Part shown: positions 18,801 through 44,739 of the stretch, one piece after another | How positions within the stretch are numbered: the first letter of the stretch is position 1 | Layout of the letters: each line of letters opens with the position of its first letter | DNA from: Ulota crispa | Taxonomy: Eukaryota > Streptophyta > Bryopsida > Orthotrichales > Orthotrichaceae | Direction of reading: 5' to 3' | DNA length: 64,000 nt | Assembly: GCA_963920765.1 (NCBI GenBank) | Contig: OY987248.1 | Location: forward strand, 2,981,001 to 3,045,000 | Notes under the pieces: generated by a model | Seen by the model: only the letters and a program-made list of their open reading frames with translations | Told to the model about the DNA's origin: nothing | Database searches by the model: none | Program-made: the position numbers and the translations under genes

Positions 18801-18927
18801 ATACTATTCTTAATTTCTTATAGCACCACAGAGATCGAGCACATAGTAACTTTGGTGGAATGATATCATTGCAAATCTCCGAGTCTTTTCAACATTCGGA
18901 CCTCGCGCTCTTAACCCTAAAGGACCA

Positions 18928-19047
18928 GGCCCCTTTCTCTGTGAAAAACACTGAAAACTGCCACTTTGGCCCCTTTCTCTGTGAAAAACACTGAAAATTG
19001 CCACTTTGGCCCCTTTCTCTGTGAAAAACACTGAAAACTGCCACTTT
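18928..19047. repeat. Three tandem 40-bp units inside the A1 terminus
   Basis: The unit begins GGCCCCTTTCTCTGTGAAAA and ends CTGCCACTTT; three copies lie head to tail and differ at one or two bases. The equivalent place in elements 31372-32522 and 62345-63262 has a single diverged unit, so the triplication is specific to this copy. Confidence 0.9.
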
Positions 19048-19086
19048 TTGGGATGAAAGGAATGGTAATCCTTTTCATTTTTTTAA

Positions 19087-19495
19087 GGGAATTATTACAA
19101 TGACACCCTTAATTGCTGACGGGACACCCCCTCTTAAGATGAAAATGTGATTTTTAATGTTGATTTTGCTAATTTTTTTTATTTGGATAAAAAGATTTGT
19201 TTTACCTTTACAATTCTAAGGCTATACTAAAAAGAAAAAGTGTGCTTAAATTTCAAACTAAAAATATAGGACTCTTGTGTTACTTAAACCAAAAATACAT
19301 CAAAAAATAGTATTGGTGCAATAATATTTCAATTTTTTTTTTTGTATTTTTCATGTTTTCTTTCAAGGAGGTGATAATGTTGTGATTGAATGAATGATGG
19401 ACCACTTCATAGATAAAAAGCAACACTAAATTATCAAATTTCATGCTTAGAGGGGGTGTCCCATTAGCAATTTAGGGTGTCGCTACAGCAATTCC
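19087..19495. mobile_element. Mutator-type MITE nested in A1
   Basis: This 409-bp element has inverted ends of about 50 bp: left GGGAATTATTACAATGACAC, right inverse GGAATTGCTGTAGCGACACC, both continuing to GGGACACCCCCTCTWA. A perfect 9-bp target duplication TTTTTTTAA flanks it (19078-19086 and 19496-19504). A 9-bp duplication is the hallmark of Mutator-like elements. It is non-coding. Confidence 0.82.
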
Positions 19496-20327
19496 TTTTT
19501 TTAATCTAACAATAAGATCTTGCTCTAGACAATATGGGGTACTTGGGTAAAAAATGAGCTTATTTCAAATGAAAAGGAGTGAGATATTTACATGTGAAGT
19601 GAAGAAAAAAGTTTTTTTTTGTACTACCCAAAAAATTCAAAAGCCGTTGACCACTCCTATATCAAAAAATTTGCTCTACACAAAGTTGAGGTTTTTTTTT
19701 CCCATGTAGAAGACCAAGTTAGGTATGTGTGGGAGAATTTCAAATCAATTGAAACTATACAACACATGGGAAAAAATAGTAAGTAAAAAGAAGTAGACAA
19801 TGAGTCAAAACACTAAATTGTTAAGAATTTAAGTACTGAAATGAAAAATGCAAATCCCAATGGTTATAATGTTATGATGAACAATCTACATCCTTGGGTT
19901 TTGTTTTTTTTCCAAAATAATGAAAATTGAGTAAAATAAAGGACTTCAAAGTTTATTTTAGAGTAGAGAATCTAGAATTGCCCGCAAACAAAAACTCCTC
20001 ATAACTTTCATCTCATCTATCAGAATTGAATGATTCAAAGCTCCCCATGTCTATATGAGTCTAAAGAACCTATTTCAAATTTTTATTTGAAAAAAATGAA
20101 ATTTTTAAAGAAGCTTTTGGCTCCCCGGGGAGCAGCTTTTTCTAGATTTTCATGCATAACTTCTTCAATAAATGTTAGAATGAAGAAAAAAAAATATTCC
20201 CAAGTAGATCTTTGAATTCCTCACCTTCAATAAAAGTTTCGAAAAATCATGCAAAGTAGTTTAGCCATAGGTACATGTCCAAAATCCCATTTGTCCCCCA
20301 AAGGGACAATGGTCCTTTAGGGGTTAA

Positions 20328-20568
20328 CCCCTGAGCGCCTAGCCCATATTCATCAAAATCTATACCCACTCACATTCAATCCAACCAAATTGTCATCACA
20401 AACAAGATCCACAAAATCTAACCGTATTGAATGGTAGGTGAGACAAGCTCCAAAGTATAGGGAAAAGGACAAATGGTTTGACCTTACCAATAGAAAGATT
20501 ATAACAAGTCAACCAAGAACTTTTTCATTTCTGAGCGCCGCATTTTGAGGTCTTGGGGCGCTCAAGGG
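20328..20568. mobile_element. TTAA element B1 (CCCCTGAGCG type)
   Basis: The 241-bp element starts CCCCTGAGCGCCTAGCCC and ends GGGGCGCTCAAGGG, with TTAA at 20324-20327 and 20569-20572. The left TTAA is also the right TTAA of A1. The same start recurs at 33270 and, less exactly, at 63862. Confidence 0.7.
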
Positions 20569-21063
20569 TTAACTGCAAACATTGGTAAAATTTTGAACCC
20601 TCCATAAGGCCCTTAAAATTTGACACTCTTAACATTTATTGAGCCTAGGCCGGGTACATTAGAAGCATGTGAGAACTTGTGTGAAGTGTCTCTACCTCGT
20701 ATGACTTTCCTATTGTACACAAAAACTATGAATAGAAAATGGCAATCTAGTACTATGTCACAATTTTTTAATTATTCTCCTACTATTGTACACAATCATA
20801 ACTAATACCCTCACAAGAACTAGGTTGAAGATTTTAATATAGAGAAAAAGGACCATGGTAATATTTACATGTAATTGTGACACCCAATGAAAATTGGACA
20901 TGCCAATGTGAGCCATGATTGCACTCAAAGGCATAGTAGGGTGTAAGGAATTTTTGTTATCCCAAAGTACAAATTAAATCAATTAAGGAGATCCCTTGAA
21001 AGGAGTTGTTAGGGGCCTTGTGGAGGGCTCATATTTTTGCTAATGGTTGCTCCACTGCTTCTT

Positions 21064-21090
21064 GCTTATTGCTTAGTGCTTAGTGCTTAG
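21064..21090. repeat. Short tandem repeat GCTTAGT(GCTTAGT)n
   Basis: The word GCTTATT/GCTTAGT is repeated four times head to tail in about 27 bp. It is a simple tandem array just outside the next element. Confidence 0.8.
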
Positions 21091-21093
21091 TCA

Positions 21094-21745
21094 AGGTTGC
21101 TTTACACTAGGAGTCAAGGCCATGAAAATTTGGGACCATTTTGACCAAAATTTCAGCTTCAAGAATTGTCCCAAGTGCCGATTATAATGTGAATATAATG
21201 GGGTTAACTCTCTGGTGTAAAGATCTGAGGCCAAAAAGTTGAGGTTGCTATAGTAAATTTTGAAAACTTCAGGAGAAGAATGATTAAAAAAATCTATTAA
21301 ACCAGGGAACACCATATTCATTAAATTGGGAATTTATAAACACTTTGGGCATTAACTAGGTTTAAGTTGACCAACTTAAATTGAGTTCCAGGTTTAAGGT
21401 GAAGACAACTTGGGAATTTGATATTGTTGTTGTTTTTACTCCATCCTATATTGTTGAGTATCTCATAAGAATGTTTTTATTCAAAAAAACATATTCTAGC
21501 AAAATCTAACAAGGACCTGGTGGTCAAAAATTGGCTTTGCTTTTTTGGATGACCCAATTTTAGGAATTGGGGTTGTATAAGATCTTGTTTCTTAAATAGT
21601 AAAACACGTTCTCATAAAATAGCCTTGACTAATTGACTACTATTGTAAAAACCTTGAGGTTGTTTTCAAAATATGAACCAATCAAATACCAGTATTAGGC
21701 ATATTAGACTTTGGAAATCAGCCTTGCTCTAGTGTAAAGTGGCCT
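21094..21745. repeat. Harbinger-like MITE G1 with family C insertion
   Basis: The left end, AGGTTGCTTTACACTAGGAG then TCAAGGCCATG, is the inverse of CCTTGCTCTAGTGTAAAGTG then GCCT at the right. The interior matches 42130-42668, which has a clear TAA duplication. A family C left end (AACACCATATTCATTAAATT at 21309) marks an insertion of about 110 bp that is absent from the 42 kb copy. Target duplication is unclear here. Confidence 0.6.
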
Positions 21746-21763
21746 TTAGTATCAGTTACTTAA

Positions 21764-22490
21764 CCCCTAAAGGACCATTGTCCCTTCGAGGGATAAATGG
21801 GATTTTGGGCATGTACTTACGGCTAAACTACTTTGTGTGATTTTTTGAAACTTTTGTGGAAGATGGAGAATTCAAAATCTATGTGGGCATCTAGTTTTTT
21901 CTTCATTCCGACATTTATTGAAGAAGTTAAAAAACAAATTTATGGAAAACAAGGGAGGGCTGGCAGCCCAAAAATTTCTTTAAAATTTCATGTAAAAATA
22001 AACAAAAATACAAGATAGGTTCTTTAGACTTATACATACATGGGGAGCTAACCAGAGTTTTGAATCATTTGATTTTGATTGATGAGATGAAATCTAGGAG
22101 AAATTTTAGTTTGCGGGTAGGTATGGTTTCTCTCAAAACCACACCTACCCGCAACTAAAAATTTCTCATAACTTTCATCTCATCAATCAAAATTGAATGA
22201 TTCAAAGCTCCCCACATATGTGTAAGTCTAATGAATCAATTTATATTTATATTTTAAAAAAATTCAATTTTTAAAGAAGTGTTTGGGATGCCCGCCCTCC
22301 CTTATTTTCTAGAAATTCATTTTTAACTTCTTCAATAAATGTTGGAATGAAGAAAAAACTAGATGCCCACATAGATTTTGAATTCTCCATCTTCCACAAA
22401 AGTTTCAAAAAATCACACGAAGTAGTTTAGTTGTAATTACATGCTCAAAATCCCATTTATCCCCCAAAAGGGCCAACGGTCCTTTTGGGG
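21764..22490. mobile_element. TTAA element A4, long palindrome (foldback)
   Basis: The 727-bp element has TTAA on both sides (21760-21763 and 22491-22494) and ends CCCCTAAAGGACCATTGTCC / inverse CCCCAAAAGGACCGTTGGCC. The two arms of about 350 bp are reverse complements of high identity, with the centre near 22127 (GCGGGTAGGTATGG ... CACACCTACCCGC). Each arm matches the right end of elements A1 and 62345-63262. No coding frame. Confidence 0.88.
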
Positions 22491-22531
22491 TTAAAACTTG
22501 TATGATGAAGCTTTCTGCATGATGTCATACT

Positions 22532-22857
22532 AAGGTAGTTTGCTCATAAACCGTCCACGCATTAACATCGCCCACCTTCTCAAATGTTCCCTTGTTGTAC
22601 ATGCTTTTTTTCAAAGGTTTCCAAACGTACAAAGAGTGTACATTTGAGGAGGTGGGTGGTTTTAGAGACCTATGGCCTTTCCACTTCAAAATTTCATACC
22701 TAATTCCACAAAACTGCAAAAAAATGAAATAACTTGGGTTAAATGTCAATTCTTCTTGTCTTTCAAAGAAAATTTACTAAAAAATAGTTCAAGAAGTTTC
22801 ACCTCCTCAAAATTCAGTTTCAGCCCTTAGATGGACGGTTTATGAGCACACTACCTT
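22532..22857. repeat. Family E MITE, copy E2 (inverted)
   Basis: The left end AAGGTAGTTTGCTCATAAAC and inverse right end GTTTATGAGCACACTACCTT bound 326 bp. The interior is the reverse complement of 6104-6427, including CTTAGATGG near the right end and TTCTTCTTGTCTTTCAAAG. The minus-strand frame at 22525-22749 is element sequence. Confidence 0.75.
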
Positions 22858-22993
22858 ATGGGTCATGGGAATTTACTACAAAACATATGCATGTCACAAT
22901 TATGCTAGTGATAACAAACTGTTGCTTTATTACCGTAAAGTATGATTCAGTAACTTGATCACAAGTCTCAAGCTTTTCAACATTTTGATGCCA

Positions 22994-23300
22994 GGGCCAC
23001 ACAGACTCAAAACCGGCAGTTTGAAACGGATGAGAAGTAACTTGTATTTTTGGAAAATTGGGAGACAGCTACTTTTCCAAGTTTTCATCTACTATTTACC
23101 TAAAGATAACCTCTTCGCCATTCTAGGGCAAGAGGTTTGAGATGGTAGATTGTGAACTCTCAAAATTGGCAGTTTTGTATAGACTAGAAAAAGTGGGCTT
23201 TGAAAAGCCAAAGAATCTGCTTTTTCACAAACATGTAAGAACCACCACCTGTTTTTTACAAACTGCAGGTTTGAACTGGCAGTTTTGGCCTGTGTGGCCC
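22994..23300. repeat. Inverted-repeat element with GGGCCACACAG ends
   Basis: The left end, GGGCCACACAGACTCAAAAC then CGGCAGTTTGAAAC, is the inverse of GTTTGAACTGGCAGTTTTGG then CCTGTGTGGCCC. Length is about 307 bp. No clear target duplication; it is non-coding. Confidence 0.65.
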
Positions 23301-23405
23301 GGCCTTGGGCCTTGCTCGTAACTACAAAGGTGCGCCACTGTGCACCCTACATCCATATGGTTTGTGATATTACTCATGATACTTTATGCATGTTATTGTC
23401 CATAT

Positions 23406-24121
23406 AAGGTTGGAGGTTCATAAACCGTCCAAGCTCTAAATTTGCCCACCCTCTGAAATGCACTCCTTCTATACATGATGTTTTTCATAGGTTTTCAAAA
23501 TGTACAAGTAGTGTATATTTGAGGAGGTGGGAGGTTTTAGAGCCCTATGCTAGTTCAGCTTCAAAATTTCATAACTAATTCCGCAAAACTTCAAAAAATA
23601 TGAAACAATTTGAGTTAGATATCAGTTCTTCTTGTCTTTCAAGGAAAATGTACTAAAGATTATTTCAAGAAGTTCCACCTCCCCAAAACTCAGTTCCAGC
23701 TCTTAGAGCATCACCACCTGTCCTACAAAATGGATGGCCTTCTAGGAAGAGGTCAGCCTACTCCCAAAAAAGAGCCCCACCCAACTCCAAAAATGAATGA
23801 CCTTTTGGAAAGGGTGACCCCAAAACTTGCCATGGCCTCAAAAATTGCCTTGTTTTCAAGCCACCCTCTTGGCCTCCAAAACCTAATGAGACAAGAGGCA
23901 CACCTTTCTCCTCTAATGCGATCTGCTTACAAGTTGTTCTTTTTGAGCATAAAAGAAGGGAGTCAATGGGGGCCAAGACTCCTTGACCTCTCAACATGCC
24001 ATGATGGTGACCCCCGACCTCCAAATCTGATGGCCCCTCCTGTTCCAAGCCCAAAGGTGGCCAATTTTTTGGGGCCTGGTGGTGATGCCCTTAGATGGTC
24101 CATTCACGAGCCTCCTACCTT
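23406..24121. repeat. Family E MITE, copy E3, interrupted
   Basis: The ends AAGGTTGGAGGTTCATAAAC and CGAGCCTCCTACCTT match the other family E copies, but the left-type sequence CAGTTCCAGCTCTTA is split from GATGGTCCATTCACGAGCC by the insertion at 23706-24090. Without it the element is about 328 bp, like its siblings. Confidence 0.75.
23706..24090. mobile_element. Tourist-like MITE nested in E3
   Basis: The 385-bp element has ends GAGCATCACCACC and inverse GGGCATCACCACC. A 3-bp duplication TTA flanks it (23703-23705 and 24091-24093). Copy E2 gives the unoccupied site CCCTTAGATGG. A TTA/TAA duplication with GRGCATC ends fits PIF/Harbinger (Tourist). It is more GC-rich than its host, and the 148-codon frame across it is not a recognisable protein. 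Confidence 0.82.
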
Positions 24122-24379
24122 AGAAAAAGTTTTACTTCCCCATACATGTATTGCTGTGTCGGTTCGATCGGAGTAGGCGTCGGTCGAAGGGCCAAGGTTG
24201 ATGCCAGGTGAAAATATTTTAACTTCTATTTTAACTTTATATCCTTTCTGACAGCCGCAACAGGGAATGTAACGGGGAATGTTCGATTAGCTGGCTCAGG
24301 TTTTTGCCTGAATCAGGTGCAATGGTGCATATGAGTGATAAGTTAGGACTCGATTTTGTTGGTACGTTGAACTTTTTAA

Positions 24380-24997
24380 TCCCTAAAAGCCTGCGGCACC
24401 AAATTTTGGTGTCTGCAATAGAGAAAGTTCAATTAACAGAACTAAGTTATTTTATTTAATAGTTTACATTTTGAATTTATTCTTCGTGAAGTTTAATTTT
24501 AGGATCAACAACTTGATTTTGAAAATGATCAATTATGAGTTTTTTATTCAAGTTTTTGTGCATGGATCTTGATTTTCTTTAGTGTTGAGAGCTCTTGGAA
24601 ATGAGCCTAATATACACTAGATCTTAGAGAAAAATTTACTCAAAAATTTCATTTGAAAAAATTGTAGAAGAAATTTTGAAAAACTATAAAGTGATTGGGA
24701 TTATGTATGTTATTTCCTTTAACCATATATGTTTTTGATGGTCATTTTTTAAGATCCAACATGTGAAAAGAGGATTCAAAGATTTCAAGTCATTTTTGTA
24801 GTTTTAATACCCTTACAATTAAACATTATAATCTTTCAATCCATTAGTGATATTGTTGTGTTTTCTTTTCCTGTGTGACCTTTAACATATCTTGTTTGAA
24901 TTTGTACAATCACAATTCAAAGAAACTTGATATATCTTGTCAAAATGTTGCCTTTTTGTTCAATTTTGCCAAAAAAAAGGCCTCAGACATTTAGGGG
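24380..24997. mobile_element. TTAA element A15
   Basis: It starts TCCCTAAAAGCCTGCGG and ends GGCCTCAGACATTTAGGGG, with TTAA at 24376-24379 and 24998-25001. The 618-bp interior is AT-rich and non-coding and does not match the A1 interior. It is a member of the group by its ends only. Confidence 0.6.
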
Positions 24998-25001
24998 TTA
25001 A

Positions 25002-25863
25002 TGCTAGAGGATCCGTTGGACACAAGATTGATGGTCCGGAGTGTGATGGGGAGTACCAACTTATGAATTGTCATTGCATAAGGTACGTTTGCACTTGGCT
25101 TCGATGGTGGTGGTGAACCCAGTACTTCAGAGTACAAAGGTGCACTGAAATTCATACCTCGGATTTAGCACCCACCCTCAAGACGTGAGAAAATACCTTT
25201 GAGAATAATGTTCTTTTCCTCTGACAATATTTTTTGTAAGTGGGTACACTTGAGTTGCCCACTTGAAAAAGTTGAGTTGTTACTTTAGGCCAGTTTAGGT
25301 TGTTGGATAGCACATGCAAACAGACGAATCGCACAGGCCAACAAATGTGTCAGCTCTTGTTTTTAGGGCAGTTTTAAGGTTTTTGACCTAAATAAGAAAA
25401 AATCAAATCACTATTATTTATTTTTGCTATGTGATATGGTTTTAAATCCACGTGTTGACTTCATGTTAGCAACAACAAGTGTGACCAACATGTACGTAAT
25501 AAGTTTTTTCATCAGTTTTTATCATTTTTTGAAATCAATTATGAGTTGACTACATTGGACAAACATGAGCTCAATCGGACACTCCATGCAGATGGGCAAC
25601 TGGACAGACAGACGGTCCAATATGATAACCATGGAAAAAACCTATATTCATAGTATTCTTAGTATCCAAAAATCTTTGTACTTTGAAATGCTAATTTATA
25701 GATCTCAAATTCTCAAGGGATAATTTGAATAACGCCATATTAAGTAAATTGGGAAAAAATGGAATTTTGAGACTTTTGGAATTTATGTTCTTTATAGATT
25801 ATTCATTGAACACTCTTTAAAAAACATAAAATCCAAAATTCCCAAAATTCCACTCCCAATTTA
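25002..25863. other. Intergenic stretch
   Basis: No gene recognised. Near 25732 there is a family C left end (AACGCCATATTAAGTAAATT), but its partner end was not found with certainty. Confidence 0.4.
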
Positions 25864-26110
25864 CCCCTAAAGGATGTTGCTTACCAAAGGTGTTGGTTGT
25901 ATACTTGTAATCCTACAAGGACCATTTAATACTTGAAGAAATTGTTTCATGAAAAATGTCAAAACTTCCCCAAAAAATCCTAGCTGATTGATAGTATGTT
26001 AATAACTTGGCATAAAATTTTCAGCTCCAATGGGATTCATATGCTACCCTAATACTCCATCCATATACAACTCAGGAAAGCGTATACAATACAGCAACAT
26101 CCTTTAGGGG
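25864..26110. mobile_element. TTAA-group element A11 (short)
   Basis: The 247-bp element starts CCCCTAAAGGATGTTGC and ends CAACATCCTTTAGGGG, giving perfect 16-bp inverted ends. The flanks are TTTA and TTAT, so only TTA is shared; either TTAA has mutated or this copy has a 3-bp duplication. It is non-coding. Confidence 0.65.
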
Positions 26111-26612
26111 TTATCATGTTGAATGCTTTTACAGACATTGTTATAGCATATGGGACCATATACTGTACGTAATTGAAGAATTCATTAGCAAAATCATTTA
26201 TAGAAGTTACAGTCTGGGAAGTTTTTAAAGCTTAATCGGCCAATATCCAACATTCTCTTGGGCCAATCGATTGTATAGAGTATACTCCCGGCTAAGCCTA
26301 TAGAAAATAAAGAATATTTCTTATTTTCCTCTTAAATGGTCAGTTTTTTTCCTAAACTTTTGAATTCAATTCAGCAATTCTCAAAATCAACCGGCTAGCT
26401 TGTAACAAAATGCCGGTACTCCTCGTACTTTGATAGAAGTCTTGCTAAGGGTGTCAGGATGTGAGGTTTAGTGGAATCTAATATTTATATTGAAAAAAAC
26501 AGGTTTTGACCTATCTGTTTGGTAATTCAACCAGTGTTACCTGTTGCCATATGCCATGCCATGCATTTCTGCAGCTGTGACGAAGATCTAACATTTATAA
26601 AAGAAACACGGC
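26111..26612. other. Intergenic stretch
   Basis: AT-rich DNA with no gene, RNA or element ends recognised between A11 and the next Harbinger-like element. Confidence 0.4.
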
Positions 26613-26615
26613 TAA

Positions 26616-27159: not shown

Positions 27160-27349
27160 TAACGATGGCTGGTGGGCATGGATGGGGGATGGGGGATGGG
27201 CATCTATTGCTCTTTGTTTAGGTTGCTGAAAGGGTTCACCAACTAGTTGTTCATAAAATAGCTCATATTTTCTCTCTTTGTCTCACTCAATAAAAAACGG
27301 AGGGTCAAAAGTTTAAGTTTGAAACTTTGAATGTGCTAATTTTTTTAAT

Positions 27350-27787: not shown

Positions 27788-27875
27788 CCCTTAAAGGACG
27801 GGTTAGTCACTGCATTTTGGTTGCACAGTGAGTATTTGCCAAGGACGTTTTTTTGTCCTCCTTGTCCATTAAGGG
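27788..27875. mobile_element. TTAA element A10, smallest member (88 bp)
   Basis: TTAA flanks both sides (27784-27787 and 27876-27879). The ends are CCCTTAAAGGACGGG and inverse CCCTTAATGGACAAGG. It keeps only the termini and a few bases between, which shows that the ends alone define the element. Confidence 0.7.
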
Positions 27876-31371: not shown

Positions 31372-32522
31372 TCCCTAAAGGACCAAGCCCTTTTTTCTAC
31401 CAAAATCATTGAAAACTGCCACTTCTAGGGGATGAGTAAGAAGGTGGATTCTTTTTTTTTTGGGAAATCCAACTATAGGATCTTGCCTTAGTCTAGGAGA
31501 GGTACTTGTGGGAAAAAAATCAAGTCATTCTAGAAGCAGAGGAGGGAGATATTTACATTTGCAGTGAAGGGATCATTAGAGAAATTTTGAGCCCTCCAAA
31601 AGGCCCCTACAAATGGTGGCGTGGTACATTATGGAGATTTATTATTATTATTATTACTAAAACTACCGTGGCACATGATTTGACATCTTGTAAATGTCAA
31701 AATTTGTTTAAGAAATGGCAGTTTTTTTTTCTATATGCACATCTCTCATGTAATGGTAGGGGCCTTCTAGAGGGCTCAAATTTTCTCTAATAAAGTTTTT
31801 TATCTTTGATGTCACTAAATTTCAAAAGCCTTTGACCACTCTTACATGAAATAAACTACTCTACCCAAAATTGTGCTTTTATTTTTCCATGTAAGAGATC
31901 AAGTTAGGTATACATGGGAGAATTTTCAAATCAATTGGAACTACAAAACACATGGGAAAAAATAGTAAGTAAGAAGAAGTAGGGAATGAGTCAAAACACA
32001 AAATTGTTAAGAATTTAATTATATAAATGAAAAATGAAAATCCTGACAATTATAATGTTGTAATAAACAATCTACTTCCTAGCTTTGGTTTAGTTTTTAT
32101 TTCCAAAATATTGAAAATTGAGTAAAATAAAGGACTTCAAAGTTTATTTTAGAGTAGGGAATCCATAATTGCCCGCAAACAAAAACTCCTCATAACTTTC
32201 ATCTCATTGATTGAAATGGAATGATTCAAAGCTTCCCACATACAAAAAAATCTAAAGAACCAATTTCAAATTTTTATTAAAAAAAAATGAATTTGAAAGA
32301 AGTTTTTTGGTCTGCATGGATGGGAAATCCTCCCCAAATTTTCATAAATTCTTGCATAATTTCTTCGTCGAATGTCAGAATGAGAAAAAATTTAAATGAC
32401 CACGTAGATTTTTGAATTCCCCATCTTTCATAAAGGTTTCAAAAAATCACACAAAGCAATTTAGCCATAGGTACATGCCCAGAATCTCATTTGTCCCCTA
32501 AGGGACAACAGTGCTTCAGGGG
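31372..32522. mobile_element. TTAA-group element A2 (long form)
   Basis: It starts TCCCTAAAGGACCAAGCCC and ends CAACAGTGCTTCAGGGG; the flanks TTTA and CTAA are decayed TTAA sites. The interior closely follows A1 and 62345-63262 (for example AATTGCCCGCAAACAAAAAC near 32167) and lacks the nested MITE. It holds extra sequence near 31500-31790, which produces a 94-codon frame without a domain. Confidence 0.7.
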
Positions 32523-33269: not shown

Positions 33270-33921
33270 CCCCTGAGCGTCCAGCCCATTTTCACCAAAA
33301 TCAGCCTTTTCATAGACCTACAACTTTGGTGCATCATATCTCAGCTAATCAGATGATCCACAAAAAGTGACCATTGAAAACGGTAGAACACTTACTTGGA
33401 AAATGGCTTGTAAATTTTGGGAACAATTGACCATGGGAGATGAGAGATTATAATATTTGATCAAACAACATGTGATGGTAGAATCTCAATTTTTGGCATG
33501 TAGTTGCTATTTATTAACTTTTACAAAATTTTATAAGCCCTTGATTCATCTCAAATTTTGTGAGTAGAAAGATTAGATGTGAATGCACACATATGCAAAT
33601 TATTGAAGATTGTACTTCTTTGAATGCTAAGCTTTAGGGCTTCAACAAAACACATTGCAAAGAAGCTTACAAAGGAATTTGACAAATTGTAACATCTAAG
33701 TGCTACCCTAAACCTCACCTTGTATTGTATTCCATACAATCAAGGCACCCTAGATACTTGTACAACATTTGATTTGACTTGCCATTATTCCACTTGTGTG
33801 GACCACTTGAGTACCTTACTAATTGTAGTTTACAACAAATTCAAAAAAATAGATCATGTCCTACAAAAAGGCTCATTTAAATCAGGAGAGGCCATATTAT
33901 GGCCTTGGGGTTGCTCTGGGG
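33270..33921. mobile_element. TTAA element B2 (CCCCTGAGCG type)
   Basis: It starts CCCCTGAGCGTCCAGCCC, as B1 does, and ends TGGGGTTGCTCTGGGG. TTAA lies on both sides (33266-33269 and 33922-33925). The 652-bp interior is non-coding. It is the first of four TTAA elements in a row. Confidence 0.7.
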
Positions 33922-33932
33922 TTAACCCTTAA

Positions 33933-34843
33933 CCCCTAAAGGCCCAAGGAACCCACTTCGGGCTTTATGAGAACTCAGATAGGTTCTATTGACTGCATAA
34001 TTTGGAAATTTTTCATGAAATTTTTAGGATGGATGCTACTCATCATAATCTACATGTGAAGCTTTATTTCATGTCATTCCAATTAGTATTGCAAAAGTTA
34101 GAAGGTTTTTTCAATTTCAATGTCAACCCGGGTAGCAAAAAATATATTCTAATTTTTTTTAAATTTTTTTATAGAATTGTATAGAATGATACCTACTCAA
34201 AAAAAATTGAATCACTCAATTCCAAATAATGAGGTAAGAGTTACAAGGAGTTTACATTTACAAGCAATGAAGGTAGGAAGAGGGTAGAAAAAACATATAT
34301 AGTTATCTTTTACTCTCAATTTTGAAAGTTTTCAAATGAAAATGAAAATTAGAGTTACAAATTGTCTGTTAGAGCATTCTCACCATTGGGATTAACAATT
34401 TTCAAATTCTTCCAAAACTTATTAGCATATTAGTTATATCTTTCATTCATCAATACCTTTCACTTTACAATTTTTGTAAAAATGAATCCAAAAGTTTTTG
34501 ATTAAATTTGTTTATATATGCTTTCAACCCATTTTCCAACATATTGCAAAAATTGCAAAAGAAATACAACATATGTGTTTTTTTTCTAAAAAGTTTGAAA
34601 ATCAAAACTTCACCTTTTGGAAGGACTAGAAAAGCTTACATTTTGAAGTTTAGGCACATTGATCTTGCAATTGGTGGGGATATTCATTCTGAAATTTTGG
34701 GACAATGTACTTGTGCAAGTCAACCAAAGGAAACTATGGTTGGATTTGTTAAAAAATAAGTTTCAATGAAGATTTTGACCTTGGTTTGGGGACTAGTATT
34801 TCGAAGCAGTTTTGGGCCTCTAAACACAAAAGAATTTTAGGGG
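33933..34843. mobile_element. TTAA element A7
   Basis: It starts CCCCTAAAGGCCCAAGG and ends AAGAATTTTAGGGG, with TTAA at 33929-33932 and 34844-34847. Only CCC separates its left TTAA from that of B2. The 911-bp interior is AT-rich with no domain. Confidence 0.7.
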
Positions 34844-34847
34844 TTAA

Positions 34848-35072
34848 AGGACCGCTCTACATATTGCATAGTAAATACGCTGCCATATTAATGACATTTG
34901 CTACCAATAAAAAGTTTTGATTTGAGATCTTGACTAGCTCTCTAGAATCGCATTGATCTATATTCTAGCTTCTTTGTTGATCTCAAATGTAGTAAAGGTG
35001 TGGATGCATTCCAAATACAAGAAAATATTAAATATTGTATTGGCCACAAAGAGCTCCTTGGTTCTTTAAGGG
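34848..35072. mobile_element. TTAA element A8 (short, left end truncated)
   Basis: It is bounded by TTAA at 34844-34847 and 35073-35076, both shared with its neighbours. The right end CTTGGTTCTTTAAGGG fits the group; the left begins AGGACCGC, as if CCCCTA had been lost. It is 225 bp and non-coding. Confidence 0.5.
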
Positions 35073-35076
35073 TTAA

Positions 35077-36029
35077 CCCCTAACAGACCAGGGGTGTTTT
35101 TGGAGAATAAATCTTAGAAATTGCCAACTTTTAGTGCTTTGTCCAAAATTGAAAATAAAAACCTTTCTTCTCAATTTTAAAAGTACAAAAGTGTGCAAAA
35201 CAGATAAAATAATATGTGCAAAAATATTCAGTCCATTTGACCACATAGATTGTAAAATTATAATGTTTGAAATGAGAAAAATAACTTTTTTTCATTCCTG
35301 TAAAATAAGGTCAGTAGACTTTGACCCTTCCTAGAGTAAATTTTTGCTCTATACAAATTTGAGCTTTTTGACCATTCACAAGTATATGATGTAGGTTCAC
35401 TCATGAAATTTTTCAGATGCAAATATAGAGTCTAGCTTATTCTAAATCACCCTCCAATGCAAGGAGGTTTAGTGAATTGGCAATACATTAGTCATTCTTT
35501 CATGATTTCTTGTGCCATGTGGAAGTCTTTTATTTGAAATCTGAAAGGTGAAAAGTTGGAGACAAACATTTGGAATATGTGAAAAAAAATTTCAAGAGTT
35601 TTGGATTTATAGATTGAAAGATAATAGGGCTGGAAGTTAGAGGAATTTTTTTTTCTTGAAACTACCCAAACATAGTTAACAAGGTTTGACTCCCTTCAAA
35701 GTGTGATGTGAGAACTCATATTTTTTTTTTCTCTTGACAATTTTACACCATGTTTTTTTAGTTACATACTTGCCAAATTTCAAAAGTTGATGAGAGTTTT
35801 AGCATAAGATTCTCCAAAGATGCCCAAGCTGCCCAAGCTGCCCAAATTCTTTTGGGGAACATAACTTTTGAACTGAGCATCCGATTAGGGAAAAAATTAC
35901 ATCTCCACTTACAAGATAAATATTTGCACCTTGTGTAACAATTTTGAGAACATCCAATAAAAATTAACTCCATATGACCCTAGCCAAGTTCTCAAGTGGC
36001 TTTTGAACAGCCACTTGGTCCTTTAGGGG
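35077..36029. mobile_element. TTAA element A9, uninterrupted reference copy of the Y type
   Basis: It starts CCCCTAACAGACCAGGGG and ends CACTTGGTCCTTTAGGGG, with TTAA at 35073-35076 and 36030-36033. The 953-bp sequence is the uninterrupted relative of the two elements at 44240-59640. It keeps both sites that are occupied there: AAGTTGGAGACAAACATTTG (CACTA site) near 35552 and CATAGTTAACAAGG (TTAA site) near 35675. It is non-coding. Confidence 0.8.
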
Positions 36030-36035
36030 TTAAAC

Positions 36036-36692: not shown

Positions 36693-36747
36693 TCTTAAAC
36701 CCTAAACCCGCTTGGAAGCATTCTTCTCAATACTTTAATCGTGCAGG

Positions 36748-36812
36748 ACTCGCATCAGGACTTGGATCGGATCAAGACTTGGATGAGGACTCGGATCAGG
36801 ACTCGGACCTGG
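36748..36812. repeat. 12-bp tandem repeat (GACTCGGATCAG)n
   Basis: About five degenerate units of GACTTGGATCAG/GACTCGGATCAG lie head to tail. The array is short and produces the apparent repeat at the end of a minus-strand frame (36755-37009) that is not otherwise gene-like. Confidence 0.8.
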
Positions 36813-36908
36813 TTCGATGAATTTTGCTGCCGTAAATGGTGACCGGCCTCAAGCCCTAAACCTTCATTTTCTACCTTCGGCATGCTGAATTTCTCCTTCA
36901 TTTCACTT

Positions 36909-37224
36909 AAGGTAGGAACACCCATAAGCATTAGTTTTCCTGTAACTGTCATCTCTAAAAGTTTGAAAATTTTATGAAAGTGGATAGATGTAATGACAAG
37001 GATGTACAATATGTGAACATGAAATCTTAAAAGTGGTTATGGGTGCAATGGCAGTTTGTTCTTTAAAGATTCACAACTTATTCTCACATTATCCAAATAA
37101 TACATTCAAAAGTGCAAACTCATTAATTTTTTGTTCTTAATAGGATCTTATAATTTAATAGTTGTTTATTAATAGTTGTCATGTTCAAAACCCTTAGTTT
37201 GGCATTTATAGGTGCTCCTACCTT
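36909..37224. repeat. Family D MITE, copy D3
   Basis: The ends AAGGTAGGAACACCCATAAG and inverse (TATAGGTGCTCCTACCTT) bound 316 bp in the same orientation and with nearly the same interior as D1 (TGGATAGATGTAATGACAAG, AGTGGTTATGGGTGCAATGG). No clear target duplication. Confidence 0.78.
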
Positions 37225-37315
37225 ATATCAAACCATGCTTGTGACCATTCATTTTTTTCAAAACCAACCATAACTATGATCATTCATACATGTTTTTTTT
37301 GTTTCAACTTAAGTT

Positions 37316-37520
37316 TCATCTATGTATATATGTATATGTATATATATATATACATACACACATTCATATATTTGTATATTTATATATTTGTATATTTATA
37401 TGTTTGTATACAATATTATTTATTTATGTATGTATGTATTTATTTTAATTTATGTATGTGTGTATGTATTTATTTGGTTTTTTATTTATTTATTTAGTTA
37501 GTTATTTAGTTATTAATTTA
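37316..37520. repeat. Low-complexity TATG/TATA/TTTA tract
   Basis: About 200 bp are made of TATGTATA, TATTTATA and TTTATTTA repeats. The 73-codon Tyr/Ile/Phe-rich frame here is a product of this repeat. Confidence 0.9.
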
Positions 37521-37634
37521 TTCACATATACATAATTAATTGAATGCAATTTCCAAAGTGTCCATTCACCTCATTGTCTAAAATTCTCATTTGTGTGATA
37601 ACCGAGTAGGCTCCATAACTGAATTTTCTATTAT

Positions 37635-38092
37635 GAGCACCTCCACTCGTAGACTCCAGCCGCTCAAGTGGCGAGTTGTTTGGGCACTTTTCAGAATTTT
37701 GACCCCCACCGGTAGGACACCCAAATTATTTTTCCTTGCGGGCTCGTCAAACAGATGTCCAAGGACGGCAGTTTGCTGGTGTTGTTCATATGCGTAGCGT
37801 GCATGAAACCCGTTCAATTCAGCAAATCATAGGCTATTCTGGGATTGTAGGAGGAGTGCGTTAAGGCGAGTGACCCTGCACCCACCCTAAACCATGACCT
37901 GGCCCTGCCTAAGCCGAATCAAAATTGTCCTTTCCGTATGGTCTGCCAGTATAATCTGGTCTCGATTCTCTGCTGAGTCTGCCTCACTTGTAATCGGTGG
38001 GGACTAAAACCAGAAATGCTCAATTTGGCAGTTGCCGCTCTTGGCAAAATTGCTTGGTGAGTTGATAGTATTCCGGACTAGTGGAGGTGCTC
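37635..38092. mobile_element. Tourist-like MITE
   Basis: The 458-bp element has ends GAGCACCTCCACTCG and inverse GAGCACCTCCACTAG. The flanks are TAT and TAA, a slightly imperfect 3-bp duplication. It has moderate GC, and the opposed frames at 37587-37817 are not genes. A hexamer microsatellite starts just past its right end. Confidence 0.72.
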
Positions 38093-38095
38093 TAA

Positions 38096-38155
38096 AACAC
38101 ACACACATAGATATAGATATAGATATAGATATAGATATAGATATAGATATAGATG
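38096..38155. repeat. Microsatellite (AC)n-(AGATAT)n
   Basis: A short AC run is followed by about eight AGATAT units. It is directly adjacent to the Tourist-like element. Confidence 0.95.
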
Positions 38156-38398
38156 TAGTAATTGAATTGCTTTAGGAAAAAGGGGCCATGGGATGGGGGG
38201 CATGGCAAGTGAAAAGTCACTCTTTTTGTGAAAAGTTATTAGAATTTTTCAAATTTGATATTTTAAAGCATTTTGAGTTTAAGGCTCTCAATAACATTGG
38301 GTGTTTCTACCTTTCTCAAATTTTGAAATTCAAGGATGGGGAGGGAGAGGAAAAGGTAGAGAAAAGAAGATAGTTTGCGTGGAAATTCATTTTCTTAA

Positions 38399-39108
38399 CC
38401 CCTAAAGGACCATTGTCCCTTTGGGGGACAAATGGGATTTTGGGCATGTACCTATGGCTAAACTACTTTGCGTGATTTTTTGAAAATTTTATGGATGATG
38501 TAAAATTCAAATATTTACGTGGGCAACTAATTTTTTCTTGATTTTGACGTTTATCGAAGAAGTTAAAAATGGATTTCTGGGAATTGAGCAAGATCAGGTA
38601 GCCCAAAAACTTCTTTAAAAATTGCATTTAAAAAAATAAAAATATGAAATAGGTTCTTTAGACTTATATATACATAGGGAGCTTTGAATCGTTCAATTTT
38701 GATTGATGAGATGAAGGTTACGAGAAGTTTTTATTTGCGGGTAGGTATGGTCAAAACCATACCTACTCGCAAATAAAAACTTCTCGTAACCTTCATCTCA
38801 TCAATCAAAATTGAACGATTCAAAGCTCCCTATGTATATATAAGTCTAAAGAACCTATTTCATATTTTTATTTTTTTAAATGCAATTTTTAAAGAAGTTT
38901 TTGGGCTACCTGATCTTGCTCAATTCCCAGAAATCCATTTTTAACTTCTTCGATAAACGTCAAAATCAAGAAAAAATTAGTTGCCCACGTAAATATTTGA
39001 ATTTTACATCATCCATAAAATTTTCAAAAAATCACGCAAAGTAGTTTAGCCACAGTTACATGCGCAAAATCCCATTTGTCCCCCAAAGGGACAATGATTC
39101 TTTAGGGG
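38399..39108. mobile_element. TTAA element A5, near-perfect palindrome (foldback)
   Basis: The 710-bp element has TTAA on both sides (38395-38398 and 39109-39112) and ends CCCCTAAAGGACCATTGTCC / inverse CCCCTAAAGAATCATTGTCC. The arms of about 350 bp are almost perfect reverse complements, with the centre near 38754. The arm equals the right end of the long A elements and of A4. The very low mismatch between arms suggests recent origin or ongoing gene conversion. Confidence 0.92.
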
Positions 39109-39112
39109 TTAA

Positions 39113-39559
39113 TGTTTGCACTAATGACCTCATGTCATGTACACACAAGAGAATTGGTCCCCATTTTACTCTAATTAGAATTGATGTTTGAGCCGGGTTT
39201 AATTTTTGTTTTTGTCAAGGTAGAGTGACCCACACCCCATAATTTGGCTAAAATTGGAACAAATGAATGATACATAAAAATTCATCCAAAAACTTGCTAA
39301 TATGAGTTACTTTCTTCCAAAATATGGCAAATTGGGATTTTGTTCTAAGAAGGATTTGGCAATTTTCATCCAATATTCAAATAGTTTTTTTGGTGTAATT
39401 GTCACGAGCAAACTTTTGGGACAAAATTTAGGCAAAAATGTGCCAAGAAATTAAACCCTGGCTTGAGGTTGTTCTTGAGACCATTTAAGCTTATGTTGAA
39501 ATTTTAGTTGGAATGACCCCAAGTTTTCATGGCCTTGACTCCTAATGGCCTTTAGGCTT
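39113..39559. other. Intergenic stretch, partly a Harbinger-like relic
   Basis: Around 39500-39545 the words AAGTTTTCATGGCCTTGACTCC match (inverted) the end of the 42130-42668 element. Beyond 40482, TGGTGTAAAGTGGCCCTAA resembles the other end. A6 therefore probably sits inside an older element of that type. No gene seen. Confidence 0.45.
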
Positions 39560-39563
39560 TTAA

Positions 39564-40478
39564 CCCCTAAAGGACCAGACCCGCTTTTTTAGAAACATAA
39601 CAATTTTGGGCAAGTACTTGTGATTGGAGTTTTTCATATTTTAGGTTGAAATTTTAACAAAATGTGGGGACGAGGTTTATCTTTCATACAGACTAAATTT
39701 CATGGCATTTGGAATTATATGTAAAAAGTTATAGCCTAATATTTTGTTTTTTTACTTTCGGCGGGCAGCTTGGGCAGGTTTCTAAAATTTACTTTTTTCA
39801 AAAACAAAAATTTTAAATGGGTTTAGGAGATTCATGTGAATGTAGGAAGCTTTGAATCATTCCGTCTGGATTAACAAGATGAAAGTTATGAAGATTTTTT
39901 GTTTGCAGGTAGTTATAGATTCTCTAATCCAAAATAAACTTTGAAGTCCTTTATTTTACTCAATTTTCAACATTTTGGAAAAAGAACAAAACCAAAAGAT
40001 GAATATTGTTTATGACAACATTCTGACCATTGGGATTGGCAATTTTCATTTCCATAATTAAATTCTTAACAATTTAGTGTTTTGAATCATTCTCTACTTC
40101 TTTTTGCTTACTAATTTTTTTCCATATGTTATATAACTCCAAATGATTTGAAACTTTTTTGACATGTACTTTACTTAGGTGGAGTAAGGAATTTAGAGAA
40201 GCACCACCAACATGGCCTTTTTTCCTTAGGAATTTCACCTTTTGAAGGGTAGCTGCCCAAATTTTCACAAGACGTTTTTGAATATTCAAACCATTCTAAT
40301 TTCCAATCCACGTGGTGGAAAGCTCTGAATTTTTTTTCACATCTTCTATAACCATTCTTTTACAAAATCCTATGGTCCCATATGCATAAAAATGTTTTTG
40401 CTTTCAAATTTGGTTGATGCTCTAAAAATGGCAGTTTTGGAAAGTTTTTGGTGAAAACCTTGCTTGTTCCTTCAGGGG
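39564..40478. mobile_element. TTAA element A6
   Basis: TTAA flanks both sides (39560-39563 and 40479-40482). The ends are CCCCTAAAGGACCAGACCC and TGCTTGTTCCTTCAGGGG. Parts of the 915-bp interior are the reverse complement of A1 (TTTGAAGTCCTTTATTTTAC near 39948), so it is a rearranged relative. It is non-coding. Confidence 0.78.
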
Positions 40479-40766
40479 TTAACCTTTGGTGTAAAGTGGC
40501 CCTAACTTACAACAGGACACATGAGTCCTTTTTCCAACCGACCTTTGCCAAGGCAAAGGCCACGCGCTGCAACAATCGATTCTCCTTTGAAAATGTAAGA
40601 AAAGTGAGAAGCTTTTTTGCAGTGATGTCACCTGACATTTGTTAGAAAAAAGCTTTTGCGCAACAAATGCTTCGTGACAAAACTCGACGTCAGCGGTAGG
40701 TGGAGCCGACTCTGAAGGGCCACAACCAATCGCCTCCCCACCCACGCTCCTACACTTTCGTCCACT

Positions 40767-41188
40767 AAGGTAGAAGCACCCAAAAGCGACACTTACCCTC
40801 AGATGTGGAAATTGGGAGGGTCTCTTTGGAAAGTAATAATAGCATTTGCTTGTTAGGAAATGGGTACAAATTCAAGCAAAATTGTTTTCGGAATTTTCTG
40901 AGATTGTAGGAATAAATTATGATTTGTTGAAGGTAACTCCCTAGATTGACCTATTATGGATACTAGACCCCTAAAAAAGTGACAACAAAAATATCATGTC
41001 ATGACAACAAAAAGGCCATGTCACACCCAATCATAAACCGTCACCTACACAATTTATGTATCCTTATGTCAATTTGTGTGTCTGGTTTGGGTGCATGCAT
41101 GTCTTGTTTGCATGCAAGAGTGCTTACTTTTAGGTTTAACTTTAGATGTTGCTAAACGGCTAGTGTCGCTTATGGATGCTTCTACCTT
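40767..41188. repeat. MITE with AAGGTAGAAGC ends
   Basis: The left end AAGGTAGAAGCACCCAAAAG then CGACAC is the inverse of the right end (GTGTCGCTTATGGATGCTTC then TACCTT). Length is 422 bp. The ends resemble family D but the interior differs. The flanks ACT/AGT form part of an outer palindrome, so a duplication cannot be read. Confidence 0.65.
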
Positions 41189-41492
41189 AGTACCAAAGAT
41201 GGTGCCCCCATCAACATATTTCTACTACTATAGTAAGACCTCCCTAAACTAATATGGTTGGGACTCCAAGAATCATATTAATTAGTTTAAGTAAGTTATT
41301 AGTTAACTTTGTGGAAGTGTAAATGAAGTAACCTTGAAGTTATGCCAAGATAGCATTATAGATAGCTTGGGGGTTTTTTATATTATGGCCTTGACATTGA
41401 GATTTGTGTTATGCATTAGTTTATAGAGCATATTAGTTTAGAGAGGTATTAGTTTAGGGAGGTTCTACTATACAGCTCTGGAACTTTGTACC
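41189..41492. other. Short intergenic stretch
   Basis: Loose repeats of TTAGTTTA(G)GGAGG-type words occur around 41230-41470. No gene or clear element ends. Confidence 0.35.
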
Positions 41493-41495
41493 TAA

Positions 41496-42048
41496 AAGCA
41501 TCTCCACCGGACCGAGCAAATCTAGACTCGCAAAAGAAGGTTGCCAGGACCCAAGGAGGCAAATGTGGCCAAGCCTGCATTCCAATCTCCCCCATCAACA
41601 TATTTCTACTAAAGCTCTAGAACTTTGTACCTAAGAGTATCTCCACTAGACTGGGCAAATCTAAACTTGCTAGAGCAGGTTGTCATGGCTCGAGGAGGCA
41701 AATGTGGCCAGGTTGCGTTCCAATCTCCACCAGTGCCACACATGCCAAACCTTGGTTTCTGAGAAAGCATCTCTTTGATGCCATGCAAGCACTGTGCCCT
41801 TGAGCAGCCAAGCCAAATTAGGGTTGAGGGGCCCGATGCAAGAAGAGAAGACACAAATATAGATGACAATGAGTTGAATCTCAGCTTGCTACAAAACTTC
41901 ATAACCCTAGGAGCTCCTCGTCCCCAGACCCCTGCTTGGCAAGACTGGTGAAGCAAACCATAGGGCGGGGAATCGGTGGATATCTGATATAGTAAAAGTT
42001 TCTTTAGGCCTCGCCATTGCTTGCTAGAGTAAGCTGGTGGAGATGCTC
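41496..42048. mobile_element. Tourist-like MITE with internal duplication
   Basis: The 553-bp element has ends AAGCATCTCCACCGG and inverse GAGCATCTCCACCAG, with TAA on both sides (41493-41495 and 42049-42051). A second copy of its left end together with the host flank (AACTTTGTACCTAAGAGTAT) begins near 41622. A segment of roughly 145 bp spanning flank and end was therefore duplicated in tandem after insertion. The minus frame 41609-41956 has no domain. Confidence 0.78.
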
Positions 42049-42129
42049 TAAACTATACCAAAGCAAACAACCAAAAAAAAATCCTTACTTTTGTTAGTCC
42101 CCCATGCTGGCTTGGTTTACTGCACATAA

Positions 42130-42668
42130 GGGCCACTGTACACTAGGAGTCAAGGCCATGAAAACTCAGGACCATTTTGGTCAAATTTACAGCCCAAATG
42201 GCCTCAAGAACATCCCCAAGTGCTTATTATAGTATGAATATAATGGGGGCTAGTTCTCTTGTTTGTAAAGGCTTTGAGGCCAAAAAGTTGAAGCCAATAG
42301 AGTAAATTTTGAAAGTTCCAAGAGAAAATGGATTAAAAAAGAGATCAAAGATAATCGTTGATATTTTTACTCCATCCTACGGTGTTGAGTATCTCAAAAT
42401 AATGTTTTTAATTCAAAAAATAATATTTTAATAAAATATAACAATGGTCTCAAGGCCGAGAATTAGCTACACATTTATAGAAGACCCAATTTTTGAAGTT
42501 GGGGCCATGTGAGATCTTGTTTAAAAAAATTTAAAATATGTTTTGAAAAAATAACCTTGACTTATAGTGTAAAGGCTTGAAGCCGTTTTCATAATATGAA
42601 CCAATTAGATTATGGTATTGGGCGTATTAGGCTGGAAACCAGCCTTGACTCATAGTATAAAGCTGCTC
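42130..42668. mobile_element. Harbinger-like MITE G2
   Basis: The ends GGGCCACTGTACACTAGGAG then TCAAGG, and inverse GAGCAGCTTTATACTATGAG then TCAAGG, are flanked by TAA (42127-42129 and 42669-42671). The 539-bp interior matches 21094-21745. It is non-coding. Confidence 0.8.
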
Positions 42669-42760
42669 TAAGTTGATGTGGGAGCCAAGATGGAATATTT
42701 CATCTTCTCTTACAAATAAGGGCAAAACTAATGATATGTCCTCTATTTTGGAATTGCCAA

Positions 42761-43135
42761 CCCCTGAATGTTGAAGGGAATGCTTTTTTGTCCCTTGTTC
42801 ACCGATAAAACATAATATACTAGAAAAAAGGCTATTTTTTAAAATCTAAAGTCTTTTTAAAGGTGATCATAGACACATGGTGTATCATGGAAGGCAAGAA
42901 ATAATTTCATCAAATGTACTCATTTGTTTAGGTAACTCAAATTGTGAAAATTCAAAAACACAGTGTTAGGTCCCATGCTATCCCACTTACAATTTTCATG
43001 AAGTTAGTAGATATTGTTGACTTTTGCAACTTTTAGAAACAATATTATAATGGGTGGGCACTTGCTATACCATTGTAAAGTACTATAGAGCTATTGTAGA
43101 GGGACAATCATGGTGACCACTCAAGCGTTCAAGGG
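42761..43135. mobile_element. TTAA-group element A16 (divergent)
   Basis: It starts CCCCTGAATGTTGAAGGG and ends CTCAAGCGTTCAAGGG; TTAA is present on the right (43136-43139), CCAA on the left. It is 375 bp and AT-rich. Assignment rests on the ends alone. Confidence 0.45.
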
Positions 43136-43139
43136 TTAA

Positions 43140-43919
43140 ATTGTATCCTCCTCCAAGGTTCTACACTAAATGAGGTTCTTTGAATCCAAATGCAAATTCC
43201 ATATTCCCTAATTCAATCTACTGATGGTAAATATCTACACTCTTACATACACTCTTACAGTTTTTGGCGGGTGAAATTCAAAGTTTTTCTACCTTAGCCC
43301 CACAATAACGTAAGTGTAAGCAAACCAAGCCCCCCTTGCCTATGTTTGTATAATGATGAGGAAGAATTGCCATCTAAAATAATAAGAGAGTGAACAAATG
43401 AAAATGATCTCAAATAACCAGTTAGGTTTTGAGATTGAATGATGTAAACTTCAATGAAAGTATTGGAAAGGAGCAAGAAGCAACGGAGAGAGAGATCTTG
43501 TATGTTTTTATGTATTTTCGAATAACTGAAAGTGAGTGCAAACAAGTCCACATGATGAAAAGGATGTTTAGGTTATATCCTCCCAAAATGGTGACAATGC
43601 ATTGATTTGCCTCTTATAAATTTAGTACCAAACTCAACTCATCGCTTCTTTGACTGGTAATTCAAATTTAGCCCCACTTTTAAATTCAGATCTTATTATC
43701 ATTTATGTTATTATTTTTAACTTTTGGAAAGCCATCCGCTTCCTGTAAGGTTATGTGCCCTCGAGTATGAGTGCCTTAACTTTACAATAACTTTATCATA
43801 ATGGTGGGTTTTAGCTTGTTCTCTTTGACTAAAGCTAGGTATTTGAATGCTACTTCAAAGTAGTTACTTTGGATACTTTGAGCTTACGTGGGTTTAAGTC
43901 CGACATGAGGTTACACTCC
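43140..43919. other. Intergenic stretch
   Basis: No gene recognised. The minus frame 43294-43551 lacks a domain. Confidence 0.35.
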
Positions 43920-43922
43920 TAA

Positions 43923-44236
43923 GGGCATCTCCATCGGTCCAGGCTCGCTCAAAGTTTTTCATGTGGTTTGGCGAGGCATGAAGGCTCTCAATCTCTATCC
44001 ATGCTTTTTGAAAAGGTGACCTTACACTCCAACACACCCCATAAATAAGTAATTGACTACTTATCTAAGGCAGTAGAGAATAAAGCTTATTAAACTTAAG
44101 GTGAATAGTGCATGAATAGTGGCTTGAAGAGTGGCTTACTAAACTTGCTAAATAAGAGAGTTTGAGAGGGTTTTGAGAGGGGCCTGGACACTTTTCATCC
44201 ACTTTGAGCGAGCCCGAGCCACCAGTGGAGATGCCC
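43923..44236. mobile_element. Tourist-like MITE inserted at the left TTAA of element Y1
   Basis: The 314-bp element has ends GGGCATCTCCATCGGTCCAG and inverse GGGCATCTCCACTGGTGGCT, both leading into GGCTCGCTCAAAG. TAA flanks it (43920-43922 and 44237-44239). The right TAA is directly followed by CCCCTAAAGC, the start of element Y1, so the MITE used the flanking (T/C)TAA of Y1 as its target. Confidence 0.85.
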
Positions 44237-44739
44237 TAACCCCTAAAGCACAAAGAGGTTTTTTCAAGAAACATTGTCAAAACTTGCATTATTTTGGTAT
44301 GTTGATCAATAATGCAAATCAAAAAATTTATGGAACTTCAACCATACAAAACTATAATGAAACAATTTTCCAATATATGGTAAAAATTTCATCCCATTTG
44401 ACCTCGTAGATTGTAAGATTATAATGTTTGAAGTGAGAAAAACAACTTTTTTTCATTCTTGCAAAATAAGGTTAGCAAACTTCAACCCCTCCTAAAGTAA
44501 ATTTGTTGCTCTACACAAAAACATTAACATTTTTGACCGTTCATAAGTATATGAAGTTAGGTTCACTCATGAAAAATTTCAGAAGCAAACATAGAATCTA
44601 GCTTATTCTAAATCACCTTTATAATGCAAGGAGGTTCAATGAATTAGCAATATGCTAGTAATTGTTTTATGATTTTTAGTGCAATGAAGAAGTTTTTTGT
44701 TTGAAATCTGAACAATGAGAAGTTAGAGCTCTACTAGAA

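Follow-up and report, generated by a model that had tools for sequence, protein, structure and literature searches.

Elements in the window

The DNA analysed here, called the window throughout, is a stretch of 64,000 bp from the moss Ulota crispa (C7:2981001-3045000 of an assembly of 274.8 Mb), and it contains a series of short elements with inverted tips, mostly bordered by TTAA, which we think are non-autonomous members of the piggyBac superfamily, that is, miniature inverted-repeat transposable elements (MITEs). A sequence-only reading had listed 18 starts of such elements; borders were set for each of them, the nested pair Y1/Y2 being counted as one row. An exact TTAA stands on both sides in 12 of the 18, and in five at least one flank differs from TTAA. 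The last, at 42761, was dropped (left flank CCAA, right end not recognisable). Seventeen of the listed elements keep both borders, and our borders bear out the TTAA-bordered group with inverted ends, its size range (88 bp to 1.4 kb), its total length (about 13.5 kb without 42761, 13-14 kb having been proposed) and the nesting of Y2 in Y1.

The twelve elements with an intact TTAA on both sides, all coordinates being given without strand, begin with 7688..8620 (933 bp, tip CCCTTTAGCGAC) and 18915..20323 (1409 bp, with an internal tandem repeat of 3 x 40 bp). They continue with 20328..20568 (241 bp, tip CCCCTGAGCGCC), 24380..24997 (618 bp), the shortest element at 27788..27875 (88 bp), 33270..33921 (652 bp, tip CCCCTGAGCGTCC), 33933..34843 (911 bp), 35077..36029 (953 bp) and 39564..40478 (915 bp). 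Two more are palindromic (snap-back) elements, 21764..22490 (727 bp) and 38399..39108 (710 bp, arms about 98% complementary), and one, 34848..35072, is a 225-bp unit between two TTAA whose left tip is defective and lacks CCC (AGGACC). Neighbouring elements have a single TTAA in common at 20324-20327 (the elements at 18915 and 20328), 34844-34847 and 35073-35076, which looks like the entry of later elements into the TTAA adjoining earlier ones. Altered flanks are found at 3664..4576 (913 bp, tip CCCCTAAATCCC, flanks TTAA / TAAG), 25864..26110 (247 bp, TTTA / TTAT), 31372..32522 (1151 bp, TTTA / CTAA), 62345..63262 (918 bp, TTAA / TATC) and in the row formed by Y1 and Y2 (44240-59640).

Y1 consists of a left piece at 44240..44728 (left flank CTAA), a further piece at about 58279-58398, between the interrupting stretch and Y2, and a right piece at 59371..59640, followed by TTAA. 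Y2 (58403..59366) is nested in it, with TTAA at 58399-58402 and 59367-59370. The interruption is a stretch of about 13.5 kb that carries a tnp2-type transposase fragment.

The tips are far more frequent in the window than expected by chance: CCCCTAAAGG, with at most one mismatch, occurs at 25 places, whereas 100 shuffles have 3.42 on average and 9 at most. A looser 17-base tip (at most five mismatches) gives 47 places, and 20 Markov sequences give 14.5 on average and up to 25; these high control counts mean that weak single tips are no evidence. When the elements are compared with each other within the window, partial similarity links those at 18915, 31372, 62345 and 39564 and the palindromes at 21764 and 38399; a second group comprises 35077, Y1 and Y2; and for those at 24380, 33933, 33270, 20328, 7688, 25864 and 27788 the window offers no relative over the full length. 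What had been described as one element group is therefore one kind of tip on several body families, not one family. The body of 35077 is also related to stretches of six loci fetched from elsewhere in the genome (L009, L010, L017, L024, L041, L045). A scan of the window with Rfam gave no match at the gathering score.

Tips and pairing in the genome

The tip is not peculiar to the window. Allowing one mismatch, TTAACCCCTAAAGGACC occurs at 20,140 places in the genome (10,119 + 10,021 on the two strands), the same sequence written backwards at 0 + 1; CCCCTAAAGGACCA occurs exactly 8,876 times, directly preceded by TTAA in 7,555 cases (85%). Pairing was studied in the first 30 forward tip places, all on C1, with flanks of 1.5 kb. 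An inverted partner tip (at most two mismatches in 13, TTAA not being part of the criterion) is present in 20 of the 30, at a distance of 491-955 bp, and is followed by TTAA in 18 of these 20 and by TCAA or TAAC in the other two; in reversed sequences a partner was found in 1/30. If the criterion is loosened and TTAA made part of it, the count is 21/30 (18 of them at 875-955 bp), compared with 2/30 in the reversed control. Two of the places, L030 (C1:906911) and L031 (C1:913795), have joined flanks that are mutual reverse complements; they lie about 7 kb apart and represent a single insertion carried by an inverted duplication, so the sample holds at most 29 independent places. Taking half of the 20,140 tips, a rough figure would be 10,000 elements which, at 0.9 kb each, would make about 9 Mb or 3% of the genome.

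Duplication of the target site

Sites without the element were sought for two elements, those in L009 and L024, by joining the two flanks with a single TTAA and searching the genome with the result. Forty candidates were scored in each case (out of 257 and 290, respectively); in each set two rows merely recover the flanks of the filled site, and the other 38 span the junction; ten of these 38 were aligned. Where the filled L009 site has TTAATTAA, all ten aligned relatives have 4 bp. For L024 the relatives have 4 bp in three, 3 bp in six and 2 bp in one of the ten rows, and the shorter sites adjoin an A-run. Pooling the 20 rows, the 8 bp of the filled site correspond to 4 bp in 13, 3 bp in six and 2 bp in one.

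The insertion of Y2 into Y1 offers a third case. Here TTAA stands on both sides of Y2 and occurs once in six of eight relatives, the other two having GTAA and TTGA (one of the eight relatives is the body of Y2 itself). The elements are thus accompanied by a 4-bp TTAA target duplication, the relatives carrying CCAA or TC/TA variants in two of the three sets, and the check proposed by the sequence-only reading, namely that TTAA be duplicated rather than present once, has come out in favour of duplication: twice at filled sites, one 4-bp stretch in the relatives (2-3 bp in 7/20 rows).

Transposases in the same genome

A search of the genome with the profile PF13843 (DDE_Tnp_1_7) gave at least 120 matches (best 1.3e-73), a lower bound, as 116 of 528 candidates were scored and some genes give two matches; none was found in 14 control genomes. 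Wide flanks were read for 19 of the transposase loci, which account for 21 of the 120 matches. In eight of the 19 the DDE_Tnp_1_7 transposase lies inside TTAACCC-type ends. For six both ends were recognised by tip search: L039 (1863-6889), L040 (1867-7612), L045 (695-6350, TTGA on the right), L046 (1695-6924), E5 (L057+L005+L058) and E6 (L059+L006+L060). For two they were recognised by comparison: L068 (297-5322) with L039, its left tip being altered and bordered by TTCA, and L048 (1801-7108) with L046, its right tip being altered to CTCC. L039 and L068 share 90.5% identity over 5,029 bp, and L046 and L048 are 89 and 93% identical in two pieces; there are therefore two families of 5.0-5.3 kb, with two copies each, in which similarity begins and ends within one base of TTAACCC-type tips around the transposase. 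Four further loci, L071-L074, show no paired ends (L071 lies inside L040).

The open reading frame of L043 matches PF13843 at 8e-60, the insect piggyBac transposase (PDB 6x67) at 4e-20 over query residues 63-369, and piggyBat (PDB 9c0f) at 6e-17. The first two catalytic sites align with those of 6x67, the triad being placed at what we take to be its positions. In a loose six-frame motif scan all three D contexts appear in nine of the 19 loci (L039, L040, L042, L043, L045, L067, L068, L069 and E5), fewer than three in another nine, and E8 shows no searched pattern; in L043 and L067 the third D is N by the same scan, which finds other changes as well. With this proviso on the positions, the sequences point to a D-D-D catalytic triad. 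A cysteine spacing pattern, sought as a possible trace of a C-terminal cysteine-rich domain and scored by spacing, is present in 12 of the 19 loci, in some of them with an internal stop or in an unchecked frame.

At L042:4317-5480 (minus strand) there is a stop-free PF13843 frame of 388 aa in which each of the three D contexts is present, while 10 kb of sequence contain none of the TTAACCC-type end patterns that were sought; it may be an old or possibly domesticated transposase gene.

A candidate parent for the MITEs

Elements for which both ends are recognised have tips (CCCCTAAATGCC, CCCCTTGAGGAC, CCC[C/T]TCAT[C/T]GCC, CCCTTTAGGGACC, CCCTTTAAGGACC and CCCTT[G/C]ACCGCC) that are similar, not equal, to the MITE tip CCCCTAAAGGACC, and the tip CCCTTTAGCGAC of the window element at 7688 resembles the right tip near the transposase of L043 (CCCTTTAGCGACC). 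In eight loci searched up to 1.5 kb from the transposase domain no MITE tip was found, because the elements extend about 1.4-2.8 kb past the domain.

The best candidate parent is L069, of which one end has been read. On its 3' side, 1.76 kb from the transposase domain, stands TTAACCCCTAAAGGATTGAGG, which is a CCCCTAAAGG tip, and the 0.36-0.45 kb adjoining it are 72-74% identical to one end of a major MITE group (MITEs in L011, L020, L023, L027, L035 and L037, and the window element at 62345). No inner partner tip (at most six mismatches in 17) lies between this tip and the domain. A loose partner of this kind is found within 1.3 kb for 29 of 30 sampled MITE tips and also in 6 of 13 element-free stretches of the window, so that the missing inner tip is weak evidence. 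L041 has a similar MITE-like end of 0.6 kb, 1.9 kb from the domain, with one poor inner tip (6/17 mismatches). The left tip near L041 was rejected, as it belongs to a separate MITE copy. The link between CCCCTAAAGGACC and one particular transposase is a presumed one.

Palindromic copies

Sixteen self-palindromic stretches are present in the window and the fetched loci. Five are bordered by the tips described here (21764-22490 and 38399-39108 in the window, L012:1505-2204, L016:1505-2244 and L039:434-1151), and the other 11 have no such tip at the reported borders. In a tree of the arms, both arms of an element group together as nearest neighbours in four of the five (support 0.90-1.00), L012 being the exception, which suggests that palindromes form repeatedly from one end, or that their arms are homogenised. 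A palindrome of another kind, 875 bp long and without a TTAA tip, lies at L069:4843-5717, on the 5' side of that locus and about 0.9 kb from the transposase domain, and is related to a stretch of L018.

Assignment and alternatives

We think that the elements of the window are non-autonomous piggyBac-superfamily MITEs, and put the probability of superfamily membership at about 0.93. Terminal inverted repeats starting with CCC are seen in the tip counts, the window borders and the sampled pairs, and the piggyBac link drawn by the sequence-only reading is supported by both the TTAA duplication and the PF13843 transposases in TTAACCC-type elements. Larger elements would supply a D-D-D cut-and-paste transposase of the DDE_Tnp_1_7 type in trans. 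Bound to the inverted tips (TTAA-CCC[C/T]T...), this enzyme would cut beside CCC and insert the element at a TTAA, leaving TTAA on each side. If the tips alone had to be kept for movement, this would explain why several bodies share one tip. That such a transposase moved these very elements, and by this chemistry, is what we infer from the ends, the sites and the domain.

Several observations weigh against this assignment, or against parts of it. The empty sites of the L009 and L024 sets are not TTAA (CCAA in 10/10; a start with TC in 8/10 and TA in 2/10), which means that either the copy that was hit had become TTAA first, as fits a TTAA-specific enzyme, or the enzyme used a near-TTAA site. 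In the Y2 alignment the gap is 8, made up of the 4 bases of TTAA, one included base of Y2 and a net 3 that are unexplained. Among the sampled tips, 9/30 (TTAA criterion) or 10/30 (TTAA-free) lack a partner. Eleven of the 19 transposase loci have one candidate end or none, and many PF13843 copies contain stop codons if introns are left out of account. The 19 loci read include no transposase element that has CCCCTAAAGGACC at each end. The 5' side of L069, as far as position 7601 of L069+L095, has no match to the other MITE half; the MITE-like ends of L069 and L041 may be true element ends or truncated MITEs beside the gene; and in the other loci the MITE matches fall beyond the borders of the transposase element or belong to separate MITE copies. 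Of transposases inside TTAACCC-type tips the genome has two full-length families; as an autonomous partner with the MITE tip itself we can offer L069, with its one end, as a candidate.

These last points bear on the alternative that survives best, in which the elements are piggyBac-type MITEs moved by a lost or unsampled transposase lineage, the families that we observe being cousins; it is compatible with superfamily membership. The exact tip at both ends is missing in all loci read, and, L069 and L041 apart, the transposase elements have no body in common with the MITEs, but the wide-flank reading covered 19 loci, and the MITE-like ends of L069 and L041, at 1.8-1.9 kb from the domain, fall within the range of 3' ends. 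The L069 match makes this alternative somewhat less likely, and we consider it rather unlikely. That the elements belong to another superfamily with AT-rich targets (PIF/Harbinger, with 3-bp TTA/TAA, or Tc1/mariner, with TA), part of the TTAA being in the terminal repeat, is very improbable: plants commonly contain MITEs of these two kinds, which duplicate TAA/TTA and TA, according to an excerpt of a review (PMC10004981), but the filled sites are longer by 4 bp in 13/20 aligned rows, Y2 has TTAA twice where relatives have it once, and the large elements with TTAACCC-type ends carry PF13843, the profile used in the transposase search of the genome.

Other features of the window and of the genome

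The stretch that splits Y1 (about 44729-58278) has near-inverted ends (CTACTAGAAGAGGGGG / CCCCCTTTTCTAGTAG) and contains a Transposase_21 (tnp2) fragment at 48532-48900 (3.7e-38); it is probably a CACTA-type element. A 22-bp tandem repeat (62022-62216) and its near reverse complement (63263-63335) stand one on each side of the element at 62345-63262. On the minus strand, at 14162-18016, lies a COBRA-like gene (PF04833, 2.8e-44; PF25079, 1.9e-70) with a PT-repeat stretch on its N-terminal side that remains under the cut-off (4.5e-05).

Judged from its sequences, the host is a moss. Its genome gives 56 matches to chlorophyll-binding proteins, and the DNA-binding part of its LEAFY gene is identical to PDB 4bhk, which we take to be from P. 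patens, at 104 of 106 residues (E 9e-73), four other LEAFY chains giving 7e-51 and weaker.

Known systems

PiggyBac is a standard transposon for footprint-free gene delivery and is thought of as mainly animal; the structures 6x67 and 6x68 are presumably from Trichoplusia ni, and piggyBat also has an animal host. The moss transposase can be aligned with that of piggyBat, whose bodies and tips are different. With piggyBac the moss elements have in common the alignable transposase, the TTAA target and the CCC tips (PMC10813416, in part); they differ from it in their tips (CCC[C/T]T..), their thousands of MITE tips, their moss host and the size of the elements with both ends, 5.0-5.7 kb compared with about 2.5 kb for the type element (same source).

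The statement that no piggyBac family is established in land plants, made by the sequence-only reading, was too strong. In the portions of the sources concerned, a fern repeat table gives PiggyBac 1,230 matches and 122,417 bp, or 0.00% (PMC6890710), a review counts it among seven MITE superfamilies of angiosperms (PMC10004981), another paper places it among the superfamilies present in all groups studied (PMC4438587), and an abstract names plants among piggyBac sources (PMC10813416). The first two of these, as excerpted, use the same superfamily name as a label, without empty sites or transposase elements, unlike the 20,140 tips and full elements of the moss. Judged by title and the start of the abstract, no paper among the matches listed has endogenous moss piggyBac elements as its subject; a Niphotrichum paper was set aside because the word found in its excerpt is "piggybacking" (PMC10619864).

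Conclusion

The full-length elements and the roughly twenty thousand MITE tips widen the documented range of piggyBac in land plants. We would give even odds to a broader idea, namely that true piggyBac transposons underwent a land-plant radiation in mosses, with several autonomous lineages of 5-6 kb, a burst of MITEs to at least about 10,000 copies (about 3% of the genome or more) and a repeated formation of full-length palindromes, which may be a consequence of hairpin chemistry at piggyBac ends and could possibly feed small-RNA silencing. The moss elements are a possible source of plant-adapted transposases, and they make two questions testable: whether piggyBac came to mosses by descent or by transfer, and what share of moss genomes is unrecognised piggyBac MITE.

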